Shown piece after piece: positions 39,341-53,547 of a stretch of 53,547 bases of DNA. The DNA lies in assembly GCA_027013575.1 (NCBI GenBank), contig JALWGN010000016.1:1-53547 (forward strand). The letters run 5' to 3'. Position numbers and translations under genes: made by a program. The stretch comes from Desulfurobacteriaceae bacterium. GTDB taxonomy: Bacteria > Aquificota > Aquificia > Desulfurobacteriales > Desulfurobacteriaceae. The notes under the pieces were generated by a model that did not search any database, was not told the origin of the DNA, and was given only the letters and a program-made list of their open reading frames with translations. Position 1 is the first letter of the stretch. Each line of letters opens with the position of its first letter.

Positions 39341-40002
39341 TACTTTACCCCGATAAGTTTGTGAACCTGAGGGATTACCCTTATCTCAAACTGAGAAAGG
39401 AGCTCCCTCTCCTTTAGAACCATTTTAACCACCTTTCGGCAGGTTTCCCTGTACTCTTCCTGCGGGTGGTGGAGCGGCTGGAGAACAACCGGAAAGTTTA
39501 CGAGTTCTCTGTAGGTTTTCAGGAACTCTTTAATCCTGTTTAAGTCTTCTTCTGAAAATAGGGTGAACTTCAGCTCAACGTCTCTGTAGTTTTCAAGGAA
39601 CTTTGAAACCTCTGTAAACGGGAACTCCACTTCCATCGTTAACGGTTTGGGAGAGACTACAAGGTGGAGCTTTTCGGCGGGGAGCTCCCTGTAAAAGTGG
39701 CCGCAGGTTTCAAGAGTAATTCTTCTAACTGTTTTAACTTCAGAAATTTCAGAGAGAACCCTGTCAATCTCCGGCTCCTCTAAAGGCTCTCCTCCCGTAA
39801 TTATCACGTCTGGAAGAGCCGACTCCTCAACGATTTTCCTTAACTCCTCAGCCGTGTAGTCTCTCCCTGAGTTCCAGGAGTACTTTGTGTCGCAGAACTT
39901 GCATCCAACGGAACAGCGACCTGTCCTTATAAAGAGAGAGGGAACTCCAACTGTAAGCCCCTCTCCCTGAACAGACTCAAATATCTCACAGACTCTAATC
40001 AT
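39340..40002 (-). CDS. queE: 7-carboxy-7-deazaguanine synthase
   Basis: A 220 aa radical-SAM enzyme with the QueE cluster motif CSVGCKFC and SLFIRTGRC before it, then ITGGEPL. It makes CDG from carboxytetrahydropterin in queuosine synthesis. I chose ATG 40002; it overlaps the stop of the small lipoprotein gene by 8 nt, and the TTG at 40014 lacks a properly spaced ribosome site. No other que genes are in the window. Confidence 0.92.
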   Translation of the reverse strand: MIRVCEIFESVQGEGLTVGVPSLFIRTGRCSVGCKFCDTKYSWNSGRDYTAEELRKIVEESALPDVIITGGEPLEEPEIDRVLSEISEVKTVRRITLETCGHFYRELPAEKLHLVVSPKPLTMEVEFPFTEVSKFLENYRDVELKFTLFSEEDLNRIKEFLKTYRELVNFPVVLQPLHHPQEEYRETCRKVVKMVLKERELLSQFEIRVIPQVHKLIGVK

Positions 40003-40165
40003 TTTTCTTCTCAACCTCTACAGGTGGCTGAACCTTTACGTCGTAGTGCTTTCCAACGTAGTATCCTCCGGCGGCGCCGGCTCCTGCAGCAACGATTAGA
40101 GGAAAACAGCTCTGTAGCGTCAGAGATAGAGCAATCAGGAGGGTAAAGGGGAGCAGGTATCTCAT
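39995..40165 (-). CDS. Small lipoprotein, 56 aa
   Basis: A short ORF beginning at ATG 40165 behind GGAGGAAGAG. It encodes a lipoprotein signal ending in the lipobox LQSC (Cys20), then an Ala/Gly-rich stretch (AAGAGAAGGYYVG) and a charged tail with a Pro pair. The Gly-rich segment resembles glycine-zipper lipoproteins. It overlaps queE by 8 nt and follows cobO by 11 nt, within one transcript. Mature protein is only 37 residues. Function unknown. Confidence 0.7.
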   Translation of the reverse strand: MRYLLPFTLLIALSLTLQSCFPLIVAAGAGAAGGYYVGKHYDVKVQPPVEVEKKND

Positions 40166-40176
40166 CTCTTCCTCCG

Positions 40177-40689
40177 TCAGTAGTCTATTCCCTTCCTTGC
40201 CCCCTCTCCCCTGTAAAAGGGGTGTTTTACAAGCTGGAAGTAGGTTACGTAGTCGGCAACTTCAACGAGGCTGCTTGTTGCGTGTCTTCCAGTTAAAACG
40301 AGCTCAACGCTTTTGGGTTTTCCCTCTATTAGAGAGAGGAGCCTCCTCTCGTCTAAAAGTTTCAGGTGAACGGCAACGATTACCTCGTCTAAGACTAAAA
40401 CGTCAGTTTCTTTTATCTTCTCCTCTGCTAACCTCAGCCCCTTGTTAACCCTTCTCCTGTCTTCCTCTGTGGGTTTAAAGTCGTAGTCTGGCCTTCCCGT
40501 CTGGATAAACTCAAAATTTGGCAGGTATTTTGCGGCAAGGAGCTCCCCCGTCTCCCACCCCTTTAAAAACTGGATAAAGGTGCACCTTAGACCTCTTCCA
40601 ACAGCCCTTAGGCAAAGCCCTAAGGCGGCAGAGGTTTTACCTTTACCGTTTCCCGTATAAACGTGAACGAAGCCCTTCTTCAGTGCCAA
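40177..40689 (-). CDS. cobO: Cob(I)alamin adenosyltransferase, CobO/BtuR family
   Basis: A 170 aa P-loop protein with the family Walker A GNGKGKTSAALG, the QFLKGWETGE segment, VLVLDEV and the C-terminal LTGRHA and HPFYRGEGARKGIDY signature. It adenosylates corrinoids to make the adenosylcobalamin form. TTG 40689 lies 9 bases after GGAGGT and overlaps dxr by 10 nt. A possible -10-free, operon-internal position means it is transcribed from upstream. Confidence 0.92.
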   Translation of the reverse strand: MALKKGFVHVYTGNGKGKTSAALGLCLRAVGRGLRCTFIQFLKGWETGELLAAKYLPNFEFIQTGRPDYDFKPTEEDRRRVNKGLRLAEEKIKETDVLVLDEVIVAVHLKLLDERRLLSLIEGKPKSVELVLTGRHATSSLVEVADYVTYFQLVKHPFYRGEGARKGIDY

Positions 40690-44358: not shown

Positions 44359-46659
44359 ATGCTGAGTAGTACCAGGTTCTATACGGCAGTTCTTATCTTC
44401 TTCATAGCGTGCGTTCTGGCCTTCACCGGTTTTAACTACTACTTCTTTGAAAGAGAGATAGAGAACGCAATCTACAGAACAACCGTTTCTGAGTCCCAGA
44501 AGAAGCTAAGCTCAACTGTTGACTCAGCTGTAGGTCTTGCCAAGGTAGAGGAGGAGTTAGCCCTCTTCCACGCAAAGAAACGGATTAAGGAGGAGGTTGA
44601 GAACGCCTGGGAGGTTGCAAATGCAATTTACCTCTTCTGTAAGAGTAAAGGCTGCAGCAGGAGAGAGACTGAGAAGCTGATAAGGAGAGCTCTTTCCGGA
44701 ATCCGCTTTGAGGGAGGAGGTTACATCTTTATTGATTCCGTGAAGGGCAGAGTTGTTCTCAACCCTCTTTTCCCCCAGATAGAAGGCAGGAATATGTGGA
44801 ACTGGAAGGATTTAAAGGGAAATTACGTTCACAGAAAGTTTGAAGAAATTGCTCTCTACTCTCCCTCGGGAGGAGGTTACGTAACCTACTACTGGTACCT
44901 TCCGGACTCTCGCCAGCCAGACGAAAAGATAGCCTACGTTAAGTACTTTAAGCCTTTTAACTGGATAATCGGTGCAGGAGTTTACTACTCCTACATAAGA
45001 AAGGAGGTTAAAGAGCACGTTTACAGAATACTTTCACCTTTTAACGTGTTTATTTTTGATCTAACGAAAGAGAACCTCTCTGACCTTCCGTTTTCGGGGG
45101 CTCTCAAGGGACTATCGCTGGAAGACCTTGAAAGAGGTCTTCTTATTGATTACCAGAATAAGATTTACTACCTGAAGTACTTCAGGGACTGGAACTGGAT
45201 AGTTGGAGCTTACGTAACGGGGAACAGCCTTCTTCAGACCGTCTATTACCTTAAAAAACAGTTTCTCTCAAAGGTGAACGTCGCTTTAGGGGTCAGTTCT
45301 CTGCTGGTGGCTTTTATAGTGATAGCTGCCAGTACTGCCCTTTACAAGTCCAATAAAGACCTTGTAAACACAGTTCGCTCTCTGAAGAAGAGGGAGAGGG
45401 AGCTCCGCCACCTGAGTAGAAGGCTCAGGTTGACGGCTTACAAGGATGACGTAACCGGTTTACCAAACAGAAAGAAGTTCCTGGAGGATACCAGTGTTTT
45501 AAGTTCCAGCAGGAACCTTCACTTCGCACTTGTGAATATTAGGAACTTTAAAGACGTTAATGAGCTCTTTGGGTATGATGAGGGGAATAAGATACTCAAG
45601 AACTTTGGAAGGGCTTTAAGAAGGGAAGTTAAGAAGAGGAGCAGAAACTGTTCTGTTTACAGGATAAGAGGGGATAAGTTTGGAGTTCTGGGCTGCGATT
45701 TTAACGATGCAGGTTTTCAGGATCTCATTAAGCGTACAATAAGGAGCCTTGAGGCGCGGGACTTTGTTGTTGAGGATATCAGTTTCCGTTTGGATGTTGT
45801 TGCAGGTATATCAAAGAACCCTGAAAACTTCCTTATTGAGTCTGAGATGGCTGAGGAGGAGGCAAAGAAAAGGGGAGTTGACTTCTACGTTTTTGATGAA
45901 AAGCTGAAAGAGAAGTTTGAAAGTCTTGAGAAGAACGTTAGAGTCGCTACAGAGATAAAGAGAGCTCTGGAAGAGGACAGGGTCATTCCCTACTTTCAGC
46001 CTATAGTGGAGCTCTCCTCCCTCCAGCCGGTGAAGTATGAATCATTGATTAGGATAGTGAAGAGAGACGGGGGGCTCCTCAGCCCCGGAGAGTTCCTTCC
46101 CGTTGCCAAGAAGATATCAATATACCGTAAACTCTCAAAAGCCGTTCTTGAGAAGTCGTTTAAACTGGCGGCCGAAAAAGGGGTAGACATATCTGTAAAC
46201 CTGTCTGCCGAGGACATCTCAGATACCAAAATGGTAGACTGGATAGTGGCTGCCATTAAACACTACGACATACAAGAGAGAGTATGCTTTGAAGTTGTAG
46301 AGACAGAAGCATTTAGCGATATAAGGAACCTTGAAGGGTTCTACTTCAGGATAAAAGAGCTGGGGAGCTCCCTCGCCATAGACGACTTTGGAAGCGGATA
46401 CTCAAACTACGAATACCTTGCCACGGTAAAACCTGACTTTATCAAAATAGACGGAAGCCTCATAACGAAAGTCGTAACCTCAAAAGAGATTGAAAAACTC
46501 GTAGCCCACATAGTACAGTTCGCCAAAGAGCTTAAAATTAGAACGGTCGCCGAATTTGTCAGTAACGAAGAGATACTCAATAAAGTTAAATCCCTCGGCA
46601 TAGACTATGGTCAGGGATTCTACTTAGGAAGACCCTCTCCCGAAATCCCTGAGGGTTAA
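44359..46659 (+). CDS. Cache-sensor c-di-GMP phosphodiesterase with degenerate GGDEF and EAL domains
   Basis: A 766 aa protein. One helix (residues ~8-30) and a second (~305-327) enclose an extracytoplasmic Cache region with the single-Cache-2 pattern (GYIFIDSVKGRVVLNP, NMWNWKDLKG, FNWIIGAGVYY). A GGDEF domain (~360-515) has RGDKF at 437-441 in place of GGDEF, so cyclase activity is probably lost. The EAL domain (~540-760) keeps ESLIR, the metal-binding DDFGSGYSN and the QGFYLG end, so hydrolysis is plausible. It is monocistronic. Its last ~100 codons lean to different synonymous codons, but the frame is intact. Confidence 0.85.
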   Translation: MLSSTRFYTAVLIFFIACVLAFTGFNYYFFEREIENAIYRTTVSESQKKLSSTVDSAVGLAKVEEELALFHAKKRIKEEVENAWEVANAIYLFCKSKGCSRRETEKLIRRALSGIRFEGGGYIFIDSVKGRVVLNPLFPQIEGRNMWNWKDLKGNYVHRKFEEIALYSPSGGGYVTYYWYLPDSRQPDEKIAYVKYFKPFNWIIGAGVYYSYIRKEVKEHVYRILSPFNVFIFDLTKENLSDLPFSGALKGLSLEDLERGLLIDYQNKIYYLKYFRDWNWIVGAYVTGNSLLQTVYYLKKQFLSKVNVALGVSSLLVAFIVIAASTALYKSNKDLVNTVRSLKKRERELRHLSRRLRLTAYKDDVTGLPNRKKFLEDTSVLSSSRNLHFALVNIRNFKDVNELFGYDEGNKILKNFGRALRREVKKRSRNCSVYRIRGDKFGVLGCDFNDAGFQDLIKRTIRSLEARDFVVEDISFRLDVVAGISKNPENFLIESEMAEEEAKKRGVDFYVFDEKLKEKFESLEKNVRVATEIKRALEEDRVIPYFQPIVELSSLQPVKYESLIRIVKRDGGLLSPGEFLPVAKKISIYRKLSKAVLEKSFKLAAEKGVDISVNLSAEDISDTKMVDWIVAAIKHYDIQERVCFEVVETEAFSDIRNLEGFYFRIKELGSSLAIDDFGSGYSNYEYLATVKPDFIKIDGSLITKVVTSKEIEKLVAHIVQFAKELKIRTVAEFVSNEEILNKVKSLGIDYGQGFYLGRPSPEIPEG

Positions 46660-46964
46660 CTTTTGTCGTTAGACTTGTCTGTTAAATAATTGAGATACAA
46701 GCGCATATTTCTGCTTATATATCTGTTAGCTGTAATTTGAACAGTTATTACTCTTACAGATAAGACAATAGTAAGTACGATTACTGTTAGAAGATTGATG
46801 AAAAATTCGGTTTCTTGAAGAAAAAAATGAGATAAAACTGTTATAACTATTCCTGTGAAGATTAAATTGATTAGAGTTTTCTCTACTAAGTATTTCTTTT
46901 GGAAAAACCTATTTGTAATTTTACCTAAAACTAAGGATAAGGGGTATAGTAGAGATATTAACAA
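46656..46964 (-). CDS. RADAR-linked membrane protein, 3' fragment
   Basis: A 102 aa hydrophobic fragment with two or three membrane helices and a charged C-terminus (TANRYISRNMRLYLNYL). The TTG at 46964 has no convincing ribosome site and falls within a membrane helix. The same frame is open upstream to 47162 with no ATG, GTG or TTG, and encodes a plausible hydrophilic turn (RNQEADEISF) plus another helix. I therefore read this as the 3' half of the gene at 47060-47629, cut by a frameshift near the T5 run at 47108-47112 (A5 in the message). Confidence 0.6.
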   Translation of the reverse strand: MLISLLYPLSLVLGKITNRFFQKKYLVEKTLINLIFTGIVITVLSHFFLQETEFFINLLTVIVLTIVLSVRVITVQITANRYISRNMRLYLNYLTDKSNDKS

Positions 46965-47059
46965 AATAGCTATTATAATATCATAGTTGGTTGATGATTT
47001 TAGTATTTGGGAATAGAGCAGAATAATAAAATAAAAAAAGGAGGTTAAGAATGTTAGGA

Positions 47060-47629
47060 CTATGACGCTGCTTCCGAGGAAAGATATCTCGTCAGCTTCC
47101 TGGTTCCTTTTTGCATGTCTGAAGAGTAGTAGTCTTTCCCAAGTAGAAGGTATAGAAAGTAATCATTATTTTTTATGTATTCTTCACTAATTCTCCATAT
47201 AACATTAGAGAATTTTTTATCGGCTTTGAACTGTTTAATAACAGATTCCTTCAATTTTTCAAATAGTTCAGCTTCATGTTTGTCTCTAATAAAGAGAGTA
47301 TAGTCGCCTTTTATTTTGTCAAGAATTAAGGGTTGCCTGAGTATGTATATTACTTTTCTTAAAGCGTATAGAAAGAGAGATAGTATTAAGAATGTAAGGT
47401 AAATATTTGTATTATGATAAATCCATTTTATCACTTCATAAGATTTCCATAATAGAAAGAAAGGCAAGATGTTAGATTCTATCTTTAAGATAGATGAAAG
47501 ATATTTAAATATTAAACCTAAAGCTCCGTCAATAGGTACAAATATAATAACTCCTACAAACATTTTTAGTGCTAAATCTTTAATTTCATCAAAAATAGCC
47601 GTTAAAGCTTTAGTACCATCTATTGGCAT
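47060..47629 (-). CDS. RADAR-linked membrane protein, 5' part
   Basis: A 189 aa protein with about three membrane helices in its first 95 residues and a charged, helical cytoplasmic loop after that. It begins ATG 47629, 12 nt downstream of rdrB with a GAGGAG site, so it is the third gene of the operon. Read on through a -1 shift at the A5 tract it would become a ~335 aa polytopic protein. RADAR loci sometimes carry small membrane accessories (SLATT or Csx27-like); I cannot match this one to either, so its family is open. Confidence 0.65.
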   Translation of the reverse strand: MPIDGTKALTAIFDEIKDLALKMFVGVIIFVPIDGALGLIFKYLSSILKIESNILPFFLLWKSYEVIKWIYHNTNIYLTFLILSLFLYALRKVIYILRQPLILDKIKGDYTLFIRDKHEAELFEKLKESVIKQFKADKKFSNVIWRISEEYIKNNDYFLYLLLGKDYYSSDMQKGTRKLTRYLSSEAAS

Positions 47630-47641
47630 CTCTTTACTCCT

Positions 47642-50191
47642 CTAAGGTTTGAAAGCAAAATTGTGGGAGTTCTCTATTAAAGCTCTTACTACCGATTCTT
47701 TATACTCCGTAGGTAAAGCTTCGTGGATTAGTAGATATTCTTCAGTAAGAGTGTTGTTAAATACAAGTGGGTCATCTGAATTTATAGTGACTCTGAGTCC
47801 TGATTTGATAATTTTGTCTTTCAGTTGATAAACCAGGTGGTCTTTATAGTCTATCAACCCTCTTATAATCATATTTGAGGTTGGACAAGCTTCTATAACA
47901 ATTCCCTTTTTAATTACTAAATTTAGGATTATATCCTTTATTCTTTCTAAAAACTCTATCTGCTCTTCAAAGTCAAGGTCGGCGTTTTCGTCAAGTAGAG
48001 GATCTAAAACAATGAACTCAATTCCAGTCCTTTTTTCCTTAACAAATTCTGAAAATAGTTTCGGGATTATATTTATAACCTTACACGGGAAAGCATTGTA
48101 CTTTTCTTCGCAGTGTTTTTTCATTTCACTGTTCCACAATCTTGAGAATAGAGAATCTTCTCCGAAGTTAACAAAGTCAAGCTTCAAGCTGTCGTATAAG
48201 TTGACTAAAAGTACCTGCATATCATCAACAATTCTAATATTAACTTCTCTGTTCTCTTCTCTCTCTTCTATTTCTGTAAGTGAATGGAAGAATTTTCTTA
48301 CAAACCTATATTTACTCTCAAGTCTGCTAATTTCTCTCAGTACTTTCTTTCTATAACCTACCAGTTCTTCATGTTTATACGTCATATAGTTCAGCCAGAG
48401 TAGATGGAAGAAATAGTAGAGAGGAGACATTCTTGTTTTTCTGTGTTTCAAACTGTAGTTCCTTACATCTATTCCTAAAGCTAATGCATGGCCTATTCTG
48501 TCTCCACTATTAAGGTTTAGAAACTTTATCGCCTCATAAATATTCTTTAAGCCTGTTCCTAAGTCAACAAAATCTTCCCCGGCGTGATAGGTAAACTTTA
48601 TTGGGTTTCTTTTCTCCGAAAGACCGTGAATGTAGTAGATAGCAGAGTTTCTCCAGAAAGAGTAAAGTGGAGCAAATACCCAGGGGGGCGTCCAGTATTC
48701 CATAGAGGCTGCGTCAATTCCTGAAAAGAAAAATGTGTACTCTTTATTATCACGCAGGAAATTTGCAAATTGCTTGGCAGATTTATAAATGTTCTTATAC
48801 GCTCTTTTAATCCGTTCAAAGTCGGAAGGTTGTCTTAGCTTTGCGAAGTGAAAAATGATAGAAAACTCTTTGTTGATTCCAGCGCCAATTTCTTTATTTC
48901 CTTCTTTTAGATTTAGCACTTTGTTGAGAACTTCCGCTATTAATCTATAATCTCCTCTATCTAAAGCCTCTTTTATTGTATCTGAGTTGATTTTTATCTC
49001 CTTTTCAGCTGTTACCTTTGGGTTATTATCTATTCTACCTTTAAAAATTTTCAATTCTTTTATTTGATCTTCAGAGGAGAGCTCTTTTAAAAAGTTGTGC
49101 CAGAACTGAAGGGAATTTTTAGAGGGAAACATTCTAATTTCAAAGCCTTTAACCGTTTCTTCCCTGTTAAAGAATTTCCTATACACTTCAGCAAATTCTT
49201 TTTTCTTTACAAGGTTTGAAATTGCAGATTTAATGGGATTTCCTTTTATAAACTCACTGGAGAAGTATTCCAAACCCAGGTAAAGGCTTTTGTCTGTATT
49301 GAGTTTCAGGATTTCGTTAAGGTTTACTATAAAAAGAACGGAGGCAAAGTACTTATAGATTTCATCTTCAGGGGGTAAAGAACTCAGATTTAATTCGTAT
49401 AAGTTTGATATAGCTATTTTAAGGAGTTCTTCAAGAGAAAACTTTTTTAGATATTCTCTACGCTGTCTGATTGGCAAACCTTTTTCTAATTTAATAACAT
49501 AGGAAATAAGAGTGTTAAATTCTTTGTGGGGATCGGTTTCGGATTCCCTTTCAAAGCATTCTGGTGCAAGTATGCTATACAAGTTTATAATTAGTTTGAA
49601 TCTCTGGAGAACTTCTTTTAGTTTTTCTTTGTCCTTTATTTTGAGGTTTTTTATCTCTTTCTTGAACTGATTAAAGTTTCTAACTGCTATTTCAATTACA
49701 TCGTAAATGTCAAGAGCAAGGCCGGCATGGAGATGGGTTTCTCTGAGATTGTCAATGTAGTAAGGAGTTTTAATGAAAAATTTCCTGCGAATCCTTTTCA
49801 TTGGTAGGTTATTTTTCTTCATGTACGACAGAAACAGTACCTCTTTTAGAACATATAGAGTAGCCTGTTTATACAACTGGAAGTTTTTTATCTTTCCACT
49901 GGTATCAAATATGAAGTCTGTAATCCGTTCAAGGGATTCCCTGAAACAGAAGATATACTCCCATAGTAGATGATGTTTTGGTTTGTGTTTCTTAAGTTTG
50001 GATGGTGTAGTGAAAGAATCTTGAATGGTGGAATTGAAATAGTAGGAGAGCTCTCCTTGATAGAGTTCTTCCAGTTCTGTCTTGATAATGTTTAAGAAAG
50101 TGGAAGTTCCTGACTGTATAGACCTACTTAGGACTTTCCAACTATGGATGACACTTAAATAAGGTTCAAGTAGTATCTGTTTGGTTTTCAT
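47642..50191 (-). CDS. rdrB: RADAR divergent adenosine deaminase RdrB
   Basis: An 849 aa protein of the adenosine deaminase superfamily, far longer than ordinary ADA (~350 aa). The metal and catalytic motifs are all present in order: HLH at 153-155, HAGED at 536-540, GHA at 567-569, CPTSN at 769-773 and NSDDP at 804-808, with large insertions between them. This length and motif spacing fit RdrB, which in described RADAR systems assembles into large shells and deaminates adenosine/ATP or RNA adenosines on phage infection. ATG 50191 overlaps rdrA by 26 nt. The reading frame is intact. Confidence 0.88.
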   Translation of the reverse strand: MKTKQILLEPYLSVIHSWKVLSRSIQSGTSTFLNIIKTELEELYQGELSYYFNSTIQDSFTTPSKLKKHKPKHHLLWEYIFCFRESLERITDFIFDTSGKIKNFQLYKQATLYVLKEVLFLSYMKKNNLPMKRIRRKFFIKTPYYIDNLRETHLHAGLALDIYDVIEIAVRNFNQFKKEIKNLKIKDKEKLKEVLQRFKLIINLYSILAPECFERESETDPHKEFNTLISYVIKLEKGLPIRQRREYLKKFSLEELLKIAISNLYELNLSSLPPEDEIYKYFASVLFIVNLNEILKLNTDKSLYLGLEYFSSEFIKGNPIKSAISNLVKKKEFAEVYRKFFNREETVKGFEIRMFPSKNSLQFWHNFLKELSSEDQIKELKIFKGRIDNNPKVTAEKEIKINSDTIKEALDRGDYRLIAEVLNKVLNLKEGNKEIGAGINKEFSIIFHFAKLRQPSDFERIKRAYKNIYKSAKQFANFLRDNKEYTFFFSGIDAASMEYWTPPWVFAPLYSFWRNSAIYYIHGLSEKRNPIKFTYHAGEDFVDLGTGLKNIYEAIKFLNLNSGDRIGHALALGIDVRNYSLKHRKTRMSPLYYFFHLLWLNYMTYKHEELVGYRKKVLREISRLESKYRFVRKFFHSLTEIEEREENREVNIRIVDDMQVLLVNLYDSLKLDFVNFGEDSLFSRLWNSEMKKHCEEKYNAFPCKVINIIPKLFSEFVKEKRTGIEFIVLDPLLDENADLDFEEQIEFLERIKDIILNLVIKKGIVIEACPTSNMIIRGLIDYKDHLVYQLKDKIIKSGLRVTINSDDPLVFNNTLTEEYLLIHEALPTEYKESVVRALIENSHNFAFKP

Positions 50192-52199
50192 CTTTCCAGT
50201 TTAGAAATTCTCGTTCTTGTTTGAGAATTTTTCTGTCTATATTTAGGTATGAAATTATGTATTCTTGTAGATCTTTTGGCATTTCCATTAAAAGCATGCT
50301 TCGTATAAAAGGTAAATTAAATAATTCTTTTATAGCTTGGGGAAGCGTGTCACTAAATTTTGATTGTTGGACTGTTTCTATTATTTTTTCCTTCCATAAT
50401 CTAAGTTCACTTTGCCCAGACAGGGATTTCTTAAGGCTTTCAAGAAGAATTTGAGTTATTGTTTTGTAAGTGGGAGTTTCTTGGTCAGAGTCTCCGAATA
50501 GTTTTTTGTGGAGTTCACGAATGTCTTTGTATATATCAAGATTCGGGATTTGAATTTCTCCTTGTAGTGCTTGAGCTTTTAATTTCTTGGGAGTTAGATC
50601 TTTTAGTTTTTTCAAGATTTCCCTTATTAATTCTTTTATGGATTCTTCTGGTAAGGCTTTTTCTAATTCTTCTAATTGTTTGTTTAGCTCTATTTTATGG
50701 TCATAAACCCTTTCTGGTTTAGAAGTCTTTGTCTTAAGCCACCATTCAAGCTCTTTCCTTAGTTTTGTGGAGGCAAATAGCTTTTCTAATCCGTCAAGAG
50801 CTTTCTGTAGATAGATGTTTTTACTAAAGGTAAAGCTTTTTATAAGAGAAAATGTTTTGAGACATAGATTGATATAAATCGCTAGGAACAAAGCATATTT
50901 AAGTTTATTCTCCTTGTAGATACTTTTTTCTAGTCTACTAATAAGCTTTTCCCTAAAATTTCCTAATAATTTTTCTATATTAAGATAGTTTAAGGAACTA
51001 TTTTCTATATTTTCATCTAATAGGTTGTATATATCGATATCCAACTTTGAGAAATAATTGAATAAGTGTTCATAACTAAGTTGGAGAGTTGCTTTCCTTA
51101 TAATAAAGTTCTTAAATATATTAAGAATTGCTTCAACTTCCTTCTTCTTTTCCTGTGTAAAACTGACTCTTAAGATGTTTTCTTGTCCTATATTGGATTC
51201 ATAAATTGAAAAATATTCAGCTAGTTCCTCCAAGTCATAGTTTAGATTCTTCCAAAATGTGATGAAAGTCTTAAGTGATTTTGCTAAGTCTTTCTGAATA
51301 GAGGATCTAACTACTTCTAAGAACAGAAGTCTTGGGAAGTTACGTATAAATCCGTTCATAAAAATTATATTTTCATTAAACCAAATCCAGAATAGTGCTA
51401 ATGTTTGTGATTTCCCATCTATTGTTAGTATTAATGATAAAAGTGATTGTTTCTTGGGATCTAGAAAAAGACTGTCTTTCACTTTATCTTCAATATCATT
51501 TTGATCAAGAGATTCTTTTATTCTATATATGATATCTTCAAATTCTGTTGATTTTTGCTTTTGATTTAGTAAGGTGTTTTTTCTAGCATCATTTTGCAAT
51601 CTTAGTTTAAGCTTTTTTATTTTTGAAAAGATATCACTGAAGCAGAGTTCGCTAACTGGAATCTTTGAGAGTTTATCAAAATCTAGCTCCAATTCAATTG
51701 AGTTTTCTTTGATTTTTATTTTATTGTATTTTTGTGCACGTGAAAGAATTTCACGGAATATAAGTATAATTTCCCTTACTGACAAGTCATTAAATAATAT
51801 TTTTACTGGGATAGACTGAGCTGAGAGAAGCTTTATTATTAAAATTTGTTCAACAAATTCTTTGAAGTTCAACGTTACAGTTTTGCCTTCTTTATCATTG
51901 AATTTCACTTTTAAACTGTGGATATATTCATAACTGAGAGATGGTACATGCACGGAGTGCTTAGCAAATGTTTTCTCAAGAAAAGATTTAGCTATATCTT
52001 TGTAAGAAGTTTCTAAATTAAGACAATTCTCCTGATCTTTATTGATTTTGTTGCGTACATAGCATGTTAGTATATCAACTAGGTTTTTGTAATTCCCCGC
52101 ACTTATTATTATTAATTTTGGATGGCTGAGGAACATGAATACTTCTGTAAGGATTTTTTGTATTCTTTCAGGAGGAAAGCTTATGTCCAGGTCGTCCAT
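50166..52199 (-). CDS. rdrA: RADAR ATPase RdrA, C-terminal fragment (frameshifted)
   Basis: A 677 aa frame opening at an ATG within the Walker B motif (MDDLD), then a sensor-1 strand PKLIIISAGN and a long helical C-terminus. A protein cannot naturally begin at Walker B, and the same frame upstream encodes the missing hydrophobic strand SFIVLF. So this is the larger part of a ~900 aa RdrA whose N-terminus lies at 52168-52848 in another frame. It converges with rdrB by 26 nt overlap. RdrA hexamers or heptamers feed RdrB in known systems. Confidence 0.8.
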   Translation of the reverse strand: MDDLDISFPPERIQKILTEVFMFLSHPKLIIISAGNYKNLVDILTCYVRNKINKDQENCLNLETSYKDIAKSFLEKTFAKHSVHVPSLSYEYIHSLKVKFNDKEGKTVTLNFKEFVEQILIIKLLSAQSIPVKILFNDLSVREIILIFREILSRAQKYNKIKIKENSIELELDFDKLSKIPVSELCFSDIFSKIKKLKLRLQNDARKNTLLNQKQKSTEFEDIIYRIKESLDQNDIEDKVKDSLFLDPKKQSLLSLILTIDGKSQTLALFWIWFNENIIFMNGFIRNFPRLLFLEVVRSSIQKDLAKSLKTFITFWKNLNYDLEELAEYFSIYESNIGQENILRVSFTQEKKKEVEAILNIFKNFIIRKATLQLSYEHLFNYFSKLDIDIYNLLDENIENSSLNYLNIEKLLGNFREKLISRLEKSIYKENKLKYALFLAIYINLCLKTFSLIKSFTFSKNIYLQKALDGLEKLFASTKLRKELEWWLKTKTSKPERVYDHKIELNKQLEELEKALPEESIKELIREILKKLKDLTPKKLKAQALQGEIQIPNLDIYKDIRELHKKLFGDSDQETPTYKTITQILLESLKKSLSGQSELRLWKEKIIETVQQSKFSDTLPQAIKELFNLPFIRSMLLMEMPKDLQEYIISYLNIDRKILKQEREFLNWKDENQTDTT

Positions 52200-52848
52200 A
52201 AATAAAACAATAAAAGAATTTCCTCCACAAGATTTTTTTCTCTAAAAACATGTCTATAAGTTTAAATAACTCTTTTCGGAAGTTTAGGTCGCTTTGGTCA
52301 AGTTTTTCTTCTATGTCTCCGTCGGGACTCATGTCAAGGCATGTCTTGTCGCAGCTTTTCAAGTAATCAGGGAAAATTTTTATTGTCCTGTGAAGTTGTT
52401 CGTTAAGTTCCAGGTCTGATTCGTATTCTTTTTCTATCTGCTTTTTAAGCCAGCTGAGAAAGTAAAATGTAATGCTTGCGGTATTTACTGATGTATCAAT
52501 GATACTGTCTACAACCCGGAAAGAGTAATTTTTTAACTTTGTTATTAAGTCTCTTAGTTCTTTTTCGGTTCCAGATTCAAGTCCTTCTGGAATATCTACT
52601 TTAAAATCGTTTTCAAGCAGCTCTTTTATGGTTAATAAAATGGTTGTTTTTCCGCTTCCTCTTCTGCCGTCAATAAAGAGGTTGTTGGCTGTGTAACCGT
52701 CACTATCTTCTACACTTTTACCCTGATTAACAGCATCTAAGAGCTTTTCTAAGGCTTCCTTTATCTCGTCTCCTAATACGAAACTTGCAAAGTTCTTTCC
52801 TAAGCTGTGAGCACCGTCCAGTTTTGTTAAATCTATTACTTTTCCCAC
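52168..52848 (-). CDS. rdrA: RADAR ATPase RdrA, N-terminal fragment (frameshifted)
   Basis: A 226 aa frame with Walker A GRRGSGKTT at 61-69 preceded by the NLFIDG strand, and an acidic helical region before the P-loop. Its last ~25 residues (from ILWRKFFY) are out-of-frame sequence. Removing one A from the A7 tract (T7 on the plus strand, 52233-52239) joins it to the downstream frame, yielding a full P-loop ATPase of RdrA size. GTG 52848 follows GAGGAG. It is the first gene of the operon. Confidence 0.8.
   Translation of the reverse strand: MGKVIDLTKLDGAHSLGKNFASFVLGDEIKEALEKLLDAVNQGKSVEDSDGYTANNLFIDGRRGSGKTTILLTIKELLENDFKVDIPEGLESGTEKELRDLITKLKNYSFRVVDSIIDTSVNTASITFYFLSWLKKQIEKEYESDLELNEQLHRTIKIFPDYLKSCDKTCLDMSPDGDIEEKLDQSDLNFRKELFKLIDMFLEKKILWRKFFYCFIYGRPGHKLSS
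52233..52239 (-). other. rdrA: Homopolymer A7 frameshift site in rdrA
   Basis: A run of seven A in the coding strand (GAG A7 TC). The upstream frame reads Glu-Lys-Lys-Ile; dropping one A reads Glu-Lys-Lys-Ser-Cys and continues straight into the Walker B strand. Such tracts are prone to polymerase slippage, both in sequencing and in vivo. Confidence 0.7.
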
Positions 52849-52860
52849 AATCTCCTCAGT

Positions 52861-52879
52861 TTTTGCATATATTTTGCAT
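52861..52879 (-). repeat. Two 8-bp direct repeats upstream of rdrA
   Basis: TTTTGCAT occurs at 52861-52868 and 52872-52879 with a 3-bp spacer, an 11-bp period that puts both on the same face of the helix. They lie 12-31 bp before the rdrA GTG. A possible operator or promoter-overlapping site; a CATAAT lies just upstream on the minus strand. Confidence 0.45.
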
Positions 52880-52942
52880 GAAATTCTAAATTATGAAATC
52901 TGGGTAATTATTAATTAATTTTAAACTTATTGGAGTTGGGTT

Positions 52943-53547
52943 TCAAGGTACTCTGAAAGTCCTCTCAGAGCAGCGTTTGAGGGCGTTGAGGTTGTAGCCT
53001 CCTTCTAAAGTGAAGAGGAGAGGAACGGAGAGCTCCCTTCCTGCGTCAACAATTTCTCTGACTATGAACTCTACGCCGTCGTCTGTAACCTCTAAACCGG
53101 TTAGCGGGTCGTCTCTGTGGAGGTCGTATCCAGCCGAAACGAGGATTATCTGAGGTTTAAATTCCCTTACGGCCTCCCTGAAGATGCCGGAGTAAACCGA
53201 CTTAAACTCGGCGTCTCCGCTTCCTTCCCTCATCGGAACGTTTAAGATGTGGTCGTTGTTCTCCTTCTCGCTTCCCGTTCCCGGGTAGAAGGGATACTGG
53301 TGGGTTGAGAAGTAAAAGACCCTCGGTTCGTTGTAGAAGATGTGTTCGGTTCCGTTTCCGTGGTGGGCATCAAAGTCAACTATGAAGACCCTTTCCACTC
53401 CCGTTGAAAGAGCTTTAACTGCTGCAACGGCAACGTTGTTGAATATGCAGAACCCCATGGCTCTGTCTCTCTCTGCGTGGTGGCCGGGAGGCCGAACGGC
53501 GCAGAAAACGGCTTCATATTCCCCGGAGAGGAGGAGCTCCACCCCCA
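52943..53547 (-). CDS. Histone deacetylase/AcuC-family protein, partial, with probable 3' frameshift
   Basis: The frame runs off the right edge, so the N-terminus is missing. Present are the family motifs RPPGHHAERD with the catalytic His pair, VDFDAHHGNG and SAGYDLHRDDPL with zinc ligands, and EGGYN. Members deacetylate acetyl-lysine, polyamines or acetoin-related substrates. The frame ends NALKRCSERTFRVP, atypical for the family. Dropping one A at 52976-52978 instead gives NALNAALRGLSEYLETQLQ and a stop at 52927-52929, a normal amphipathic C-terminal helix. So a one-base indel is likely. Confidence 0.85.
   Translation of the reverse strand, partial: GVELLLSGEYEAVFCAVRPPGHHAERDRAMGFCIFNNVAVAAVKALSTGVERVFIVDFDAHHGNGTEHIFYNEPRVFYFSTHQYPFYPGTGSEKENNDHILNVPMREGSGDAEFKSVYSGIFREAVREFKPQIILVSAGYDLHRDDPLTGLEVTDDGVEFIVREIVDAGRELSVPLLFTLEGGYNLNALKRCSERTFRVP

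Follow-up and report, generated by a model that had tools for sequence, protein, structure and literature searches.

The window, the 53,547-nucleotide stretch of contig JALWGN010000016.1 analysed here, very probably carries a RADAR-family anti-phage operon of a deep Aquificota lineage that has been inserted into a Desulfurobacteriaceae chromosome; the assembly of the complex, its substrate, and its part in defence we infer. Based on the ORF list and on comparison with related loci, the operon occupies 46656-52848 on the minus strand and encodes an AAA+ ATPase split into two ORFs, a protein of the deaminase family, and a membrane protein that is split as well (Table 1). A first-pass annotation had already described a single minus-strand operon and an ATPase whose Walker A and B motifs lie in two fragments, and both points hold: all five ORFs lie on the minus strand, and the two ATPase fragments, of 226 aa and 677 aa, are in different frames. 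The membrane protein that it listed is present, but its division into ORFs of 189 and 102 aa had gone unseen. The rdrA-like and rdrB-like ORFs stand in tandem with an overlap of 26 bp, and the membrane gene starts 13 bp past the end of rdrB. In the C-terminal part of the membrane protein, the open frame runs further upstream than the 102-aa ORF, and this part contains further predicted transmembrane (TM) segments and an NRYISRN-RLYLNYL tail.

Table 1. Features of the putative RADAR operon and its insertion, in window coordinates
Feature	Position	Strand	Remarks
rdrA-like ATPase, N-terminal part	52168..52848	-	226 aa with Walker A (GRRGSGKTT); unbroken homologues at L011 and L013
A7 run, likely 1-nt frameshift site in ATPase gene	52233..52239	-	relatives read through in one frame
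rdrA-like ATPase, C-terminal part	50166..52199	-	677 aa, begins at Walker B MDDLD; helical C-terminal lobe
rdrB-like deaminase	47642..50191	-	849 aa, intact, all catalytic motifs
Membrane protein, N-terminal part	47060..47629	-	189 aa, two predicted TM segments
A5 run beside 1-nt frameshift in membrane gene	47108..47112	-	from DNA alignment with G117 contig C10
Membrane protein, C-terminal part	46656..46964	-	102-aa ORF counted from first start codon
Insertion with whole operon	46660..52940	.	~6.28 kb, 32% GC; edges accurate to a few bases

The deaminase belongs to the RdrB family

The 849-aa protein matched the NCBIfam RdrB model NF041744 with 114.3 bits (E 6e-33), compared to 48 bits for an ordinary deaminase. 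The PADLOC RdrB model matched at E 1e-22, with CARF-ADA and plain ADA lower, and the best sequence match in the PDB was RdrB of E. coli (8fnv, E 1.2e-16). When the four Aquificota RdrBs were aligned to 37 others by hhalign, the match reached 100% (E 1.7e-58) over 634 columns. Judged by sequence comparison, the RdrB match of this protein is far beyond chance. Its 114.3 bits miss the NCBIfam equivalog cut-off of 800 bits, as do the scores of 10 other RADAR-type RdrBs, each of which has a large gene directly upstream; because these 10 proteins score only 139-195 bits, the cut-off describes a narrow subgroup and not the family.

Every motif that had been ascribed to the protein (HLH, HAGED, GHA, CPTSN, and NSDDP) was found, and the catalytic residues of the ADA superfamily (HxH, HxGE, H, and D) are all kept. 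Across 38 RdrBs, including that of the window, H153, H155, H536, E539, H568, and D806 are invariant. The HxH motif lies at residue 153 (median of the others, 168) and is followed after 383 aa by HAGED (337 in the others), with 238 aa from the catalytic His to DD (213 in the others). The three RdrB-type insertions that bring the ADA core to ~800 aa are present, as judged by length and fold only, in the 849 aa of the window protein. In a Foldseek search with the predicted structure (mean pLDDT 66.6), the top 8 PDB matches were all RdrB (E 2.3e-16), aligned over the whole RdrB chain, and ordinary ADA came next at 1.5e-4; the alignments behind this model and that of the ATPase hold RdrB and RdrA homologues, and fold matches are accordingly not independent of homology. 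Profile and structure comparison, proposed as a check with the original annotation, both favor RdrB over an ordinary ADA or AMP deaminase.

The C-terminal motif region of the protein also matched Pfam A_deaminase with 43.5 bits, which would be consistent with an ordinary adenosine or AMP deaminase standing beside an unrelated AAA+ or STAND ATPase rather than with RADAR. We consider this extremely improbable, given that RdrB was on top in all searches and outscored ADA and Cad1 everywhere, that all three insertions are present by length, that the best match of the neighboring ATPase is RdrA, and that the rdrA-rdrB pair is kept across several Aquificota genera. Cad1, a member of the same deaminase superfamily for which ATP-to-ITP chemistry has been published (PMC11645235), was rejected as well, as it scored below RdrB in both PADLOC and Foldseek. 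Unlike the window deaminase, Cad1 has a CARF domain, and its association is with type III CRISPR, not with RdrA; a Pfam search found no CARF domain in the 849-aa protein, and the PADLOC CARF-ADA match covers the deaminase part only.

The split ATPase matches RdrA

The RdrAs of this Aquificota lineage are too divergent for the model libraries, which barely detect them or miss even intact relatives. NCBIfam RdrA matched the N-terminal ATPase piece with 20.6 bits (equivalog cut-off 600) and the C-terminal piece not at all, and none of the PADLOC RdrA models reached E 0.01 against the intact relatives at loci L011 and L013 (genomes G131 and G132). A profile of the frame-joined ATPase was judged by profile-profile alignment and fold, and by both measures RdrA was the best match, as had been predicted. 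With hhalign, this profile matched 29 RdrAs at 99.4% (E 1.5e-21) over 368 columns covering the whole AAA+ domain; an NtrC AAA+ control, whose profile consisted of two sequences, gave 4% over 24 columns. Walker A (G61-T68) and the Walker B residues D218, D219, and D221 are invariant.

The first 13 PDB matches of the ATPase model in Foldseek were all RdrA, beginning at E 1.4e-8. The mean pLDDT of the model is 56.6, good in the AAA+ part and poor in the C-terminal lobe, which is predicted at low confidence to be helical and lies outside the hhalign match. The predicted structure has a four-helix insertion (residues 126-204), placed after the second AAA+ strand and ahead of Walker B, that would fit the crown insertion described for RdrA (PMC9994260). 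A sequence search of the PDB with a three-member RdrA profile found no RdrA; with a deeper alignment RdrA was found, but owing to the known-type RdrAs that this alignment includes. The RADAR identity originally proposed for the operon is supported for RdrB by profile, PDB sequence, fold, and tree, for RdrA by hhalign and fold, and for the pair by gene order. That order and the protein sizes match RADAR as claimed, the order being common to dozens of loci.

The window RdrB groups with three other Aquificota loci

An alignment-based scan of genome contigs yielded 87 relatives, 80 of which were kept, and a scan with the single protein yielded none; no relatives were found in the viral contigs scanned. 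A tree built from 82 RdrBs placed the window protein in one clade with those of G131 (L011), G132 (L013), and G093 (L012), with an SH-aLRT support of 100 and a stem of 1.64; the window protein is 32-46% identical to them. These four loci form a separate, long-branched RdrB clade. When the tree was rooted on E. coli ADA, the clade lay inside RdrB, where its neighbor was a Bacillota group (92/97). A plasmid-borne RdrB with a RADAR annotation branched earlier; the exact position of the clade is unsure, with deep-node support moderate and long branches flagged.

Pieces of RADAR were detected in 10 of the 136 genomes of the phylum Aquificota, seven by RdrB and three more (G070, G092, and G121) by parts of RdrA where a contig stops. 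Nearly all loci with both genes inside the retrieved stretch have the order rdrA-rdrB, and intact rdrA-rdrB copies in related genomes, for which the earlier annotation had suggested a profile search, exist in G131 and G132. The genome of the window (1.60 Mb in 122 contigs, 94% complete) belongs to the same family as G132, the Desulfurobacteriaceae of the phylum Aquificota according to NCBI, a group of heat-loving vent bacteria. We are confident that G132 is Thermovibrio ammonificans HB-1, an organism in culture with optimal growth at 75 °C (PMC3570795). This kinship agrees with the placement of the host as an Aquificota-like thermophile that had been read from the sequence.

The operon was inserted between two chromosomal genes

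The inserted segment of ~6.28 kb lies between an EAL/GGDEF gene, which ends at 46659, and an HDAC-family gene, which ends at 52943. In G116, a genome of the same genus (L024), these two genes abut end to end, and in the window the HDAC protein is altered in nothing but its last residues. The GC content is 32% in the insert versus 48% in the preceding flank. A tRNA search of the window gave no hits, and no integrase ORF was seen in the insert. Another member of the genus, G117, shows the same junction as the window at L128 (G117:C10:4247-4993), with a homologous membrane gene in which the contig breaks off; neither RdrA nor RdrB was found elsewhere in the G117 assembly. We also observed that the HDAC-family gene of G118 is split into two overlapping ORFs (L023:1962-2869), whereas G116 and G115 each encode it as one ORF.

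Two apparent frameshifts interrupt the window copy

While rdrB is uninterrupted in the assembly of the window, rdrA is not. The frames of Walker A and Walker B are one base apart around the A7 run, and the two ATPase ORFs correspond to one gene, with one-frame homologues in G131 (894 aa, L011) and G132 (863 aa, L013). Likewise, the 189-aa and 102-aa ORFs correspond to one membrane gene, as both align to a single 280-aa gene after rdrB in G096, and the equivalent gene at the same chromosomal site in G117 is in one frame. Because of these two frameshifts, the activity of the window copy is doubtful and it may be non-functional. The break in rdrA bears on the function of this copy and not on its membership in the RADAR family.

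One reading of the breaks is that the window holds a dead remnant of RADAR, gained by insertion and decaying through frameshifts, to which we give slightly less than an even chance. Two independent frameshifts occur inside 6.3 kb of an AT-rich insert that is absent from G116, and the frameshifts lean toward being real because no comparable uncompensated indel occurs in the neighboring DNA: 12.9 kb syntenic with G116, aligned by blastn, show only small, mutually compensating indels, with core genes at full length. Against decay, rdrB is fully open over 849 codons with every motif kept, and both frameshifts are single-base changes by A-runs, the usual spot for sequencing or assembly errors, in an assembly of 122 contigs. 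Because both breaks sit at A-runs, they also lean toward sequencing or assembly artefacts in an operon that is in fact intact, and the open frames outside the breaks are long and conserved throughout; this explanation, against which the 12.9 kb of clean neighboring DNA also counts, in our estimate comes close to an even bet without quite reaching it. Programmed or slippage frameshifting in rdrA, yielding both a truncated and a full-length ATPase, is improbable. The A7 run at the junction and the overlap of the two ATPase ORFs would suit such a mechanism, but the intact relatives encode the ATPase without a change of frame and have no comparable A7 at this place, and the break in the membrane gene would require a separate explanation.

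The membrane protein comes from a family that also occurs outside RADAR

Neither the window pieces nor the membrane protein of L014 (the G096 locus) matched any PADLOC model, including those of SLATT and Csx27, the known accessory membrane proteins of RADAR, and against Pfam the membrane proteins gave weak, chance-level hits at most. Members of the family also occur in apparently non-defence settings. In G117 and in the window's own genome, a member has a radical-SAM gene on one side and a hemE-like gene on the other, in the latter genome at 39869-40675 of G000:C19 (L126:7870-8676), with further members in L125, L127, and L129. The member in T. ammonificans follows the same radical-SAM gene, while that of G082 lies among hydrogenase-type genes; none of the non-RADAR members tested matched a Pfam or PADLOC family. 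Because the family also occurs outside RADAR, the membrane gene of the operon is probably recruited or a passenger and not specific to RADAR. Any role that it may have in the system is putative.

Directly after rdrB, the RADAR loci L069, L080, and L039 also encode short proteins for which four TM segments are predicted, two of them with a weak match to the RT-associated SLATT model.

Relation to known systems

The window resembles the RADAR systems of E. coli, Citrobacter rodentium, and Streptococcus suis in gene order, protein sizes, the active-site residues of the deaminase, and an AAA+ domain with an extended region between Walker A and Walker B, and its best matches are the solved RdrA and RdrB. 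Accepted RADAR systems are 22-28% identical to each other (PMC9994260), and the divergence of the window is similar. It differs from known RADAR in its separate, long-branched clade, in an RdrA mostly missed by library models, in its thermophilic hosts, in a membrane partner from a family also found outside defence loci, and in its two frameshifts. The window copy represents a deep-branching, thermophilic new member of a known system. Within its own clade, G131 and G132 differ from the window in having no membrane gene adjoining rdrB, and G093 in having homologues of SspD/F/G downstream and an rdrA cut by the contig end. G096, in contrast, shares with the window an rdrA-rdrB pair followed by a homologous membrane gene, but both of its core proteins fall on a different, more typical branch, and its RdrA scores 96 bits against the RdrA model.

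By homology with known RADAR, an AAA+ ring of RdrA with a helical crown would dock on a deaminase shell of RdrB, phage would be sensed, probably via the C-terminal lobe of RdrA, and RdrB would poison the nucleotide pool by turning (d)ATP into (d)ITP. The same chemistry is likely for the Aquificota lineage because the catalytic and Walker residues are conserved. The first-pass annotation had taken RADAR to be an adenosine deaminase acting on RNA; the published work favors ATP-to-ITP conversion over RNA editing, which it did not confirm (PMC9994260). A more speculative scenario, which we regard as possible but rather unlikely, is that a thermophilic Aquificota lineage of RADAR separated early, with an RdrA too divergent for annotation, and that some of its members recruited a multi-pass membrane protein of non-defence origin, perhaps tying the complex or its sensing to the membrane.

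RADAR has been reported in <1% of genomes, from 75 genera and 7 phyla (PMC9994260). Counts that depend on library models are probably low because these models miss several Aquificota RdrAs, and in this phylum pieces turned up in 10 genomes out of 136. We found no report of RADAR in Aquificota or Desulfurobacteriaceae in the open-licence literature; earlier detection in Aquificota, for instance among the 270 systems of Table S1 in PMC9994260, is possible. In line with the suggestion that a vent-type thermophile carries the system and could supply thermostable complexes, the intact copy of T. ammonificans (75 °C) is a possible source of heat-stable RdrA-RdrB complexes; the window copy is frameshifted and maybe non-functional. 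Such complexes would aid in determining what the C-terminal lobe of RdrA responds to and which of the two, ATP or RNA, RADAR truly targets.

Other RADAR loci in Aquificota

L014 (G096:C30) contains a second RADAR from another branch in the same class, with an RdrA of 1050 aa, an RdrB of 924 aa, and the membrane gene. Aquificota thus have at least two lineages of RADAR. On the 7302-bp contig C4 of G093 (L012), homologues of SspD, SspF, and SspG directly follow an RdrB of the window's clade, with contig ends cutting the locus on both sides; RADAR and Ssp may form a joint defence cluster here. Finally, L131 (G121 contig C142) holds a close relative of RdrA, of which ~77 N-terminal residues are present before the contig edge, adjoining two large genes that on inspection resemble a restriction-modification or BREX-type methylase system.
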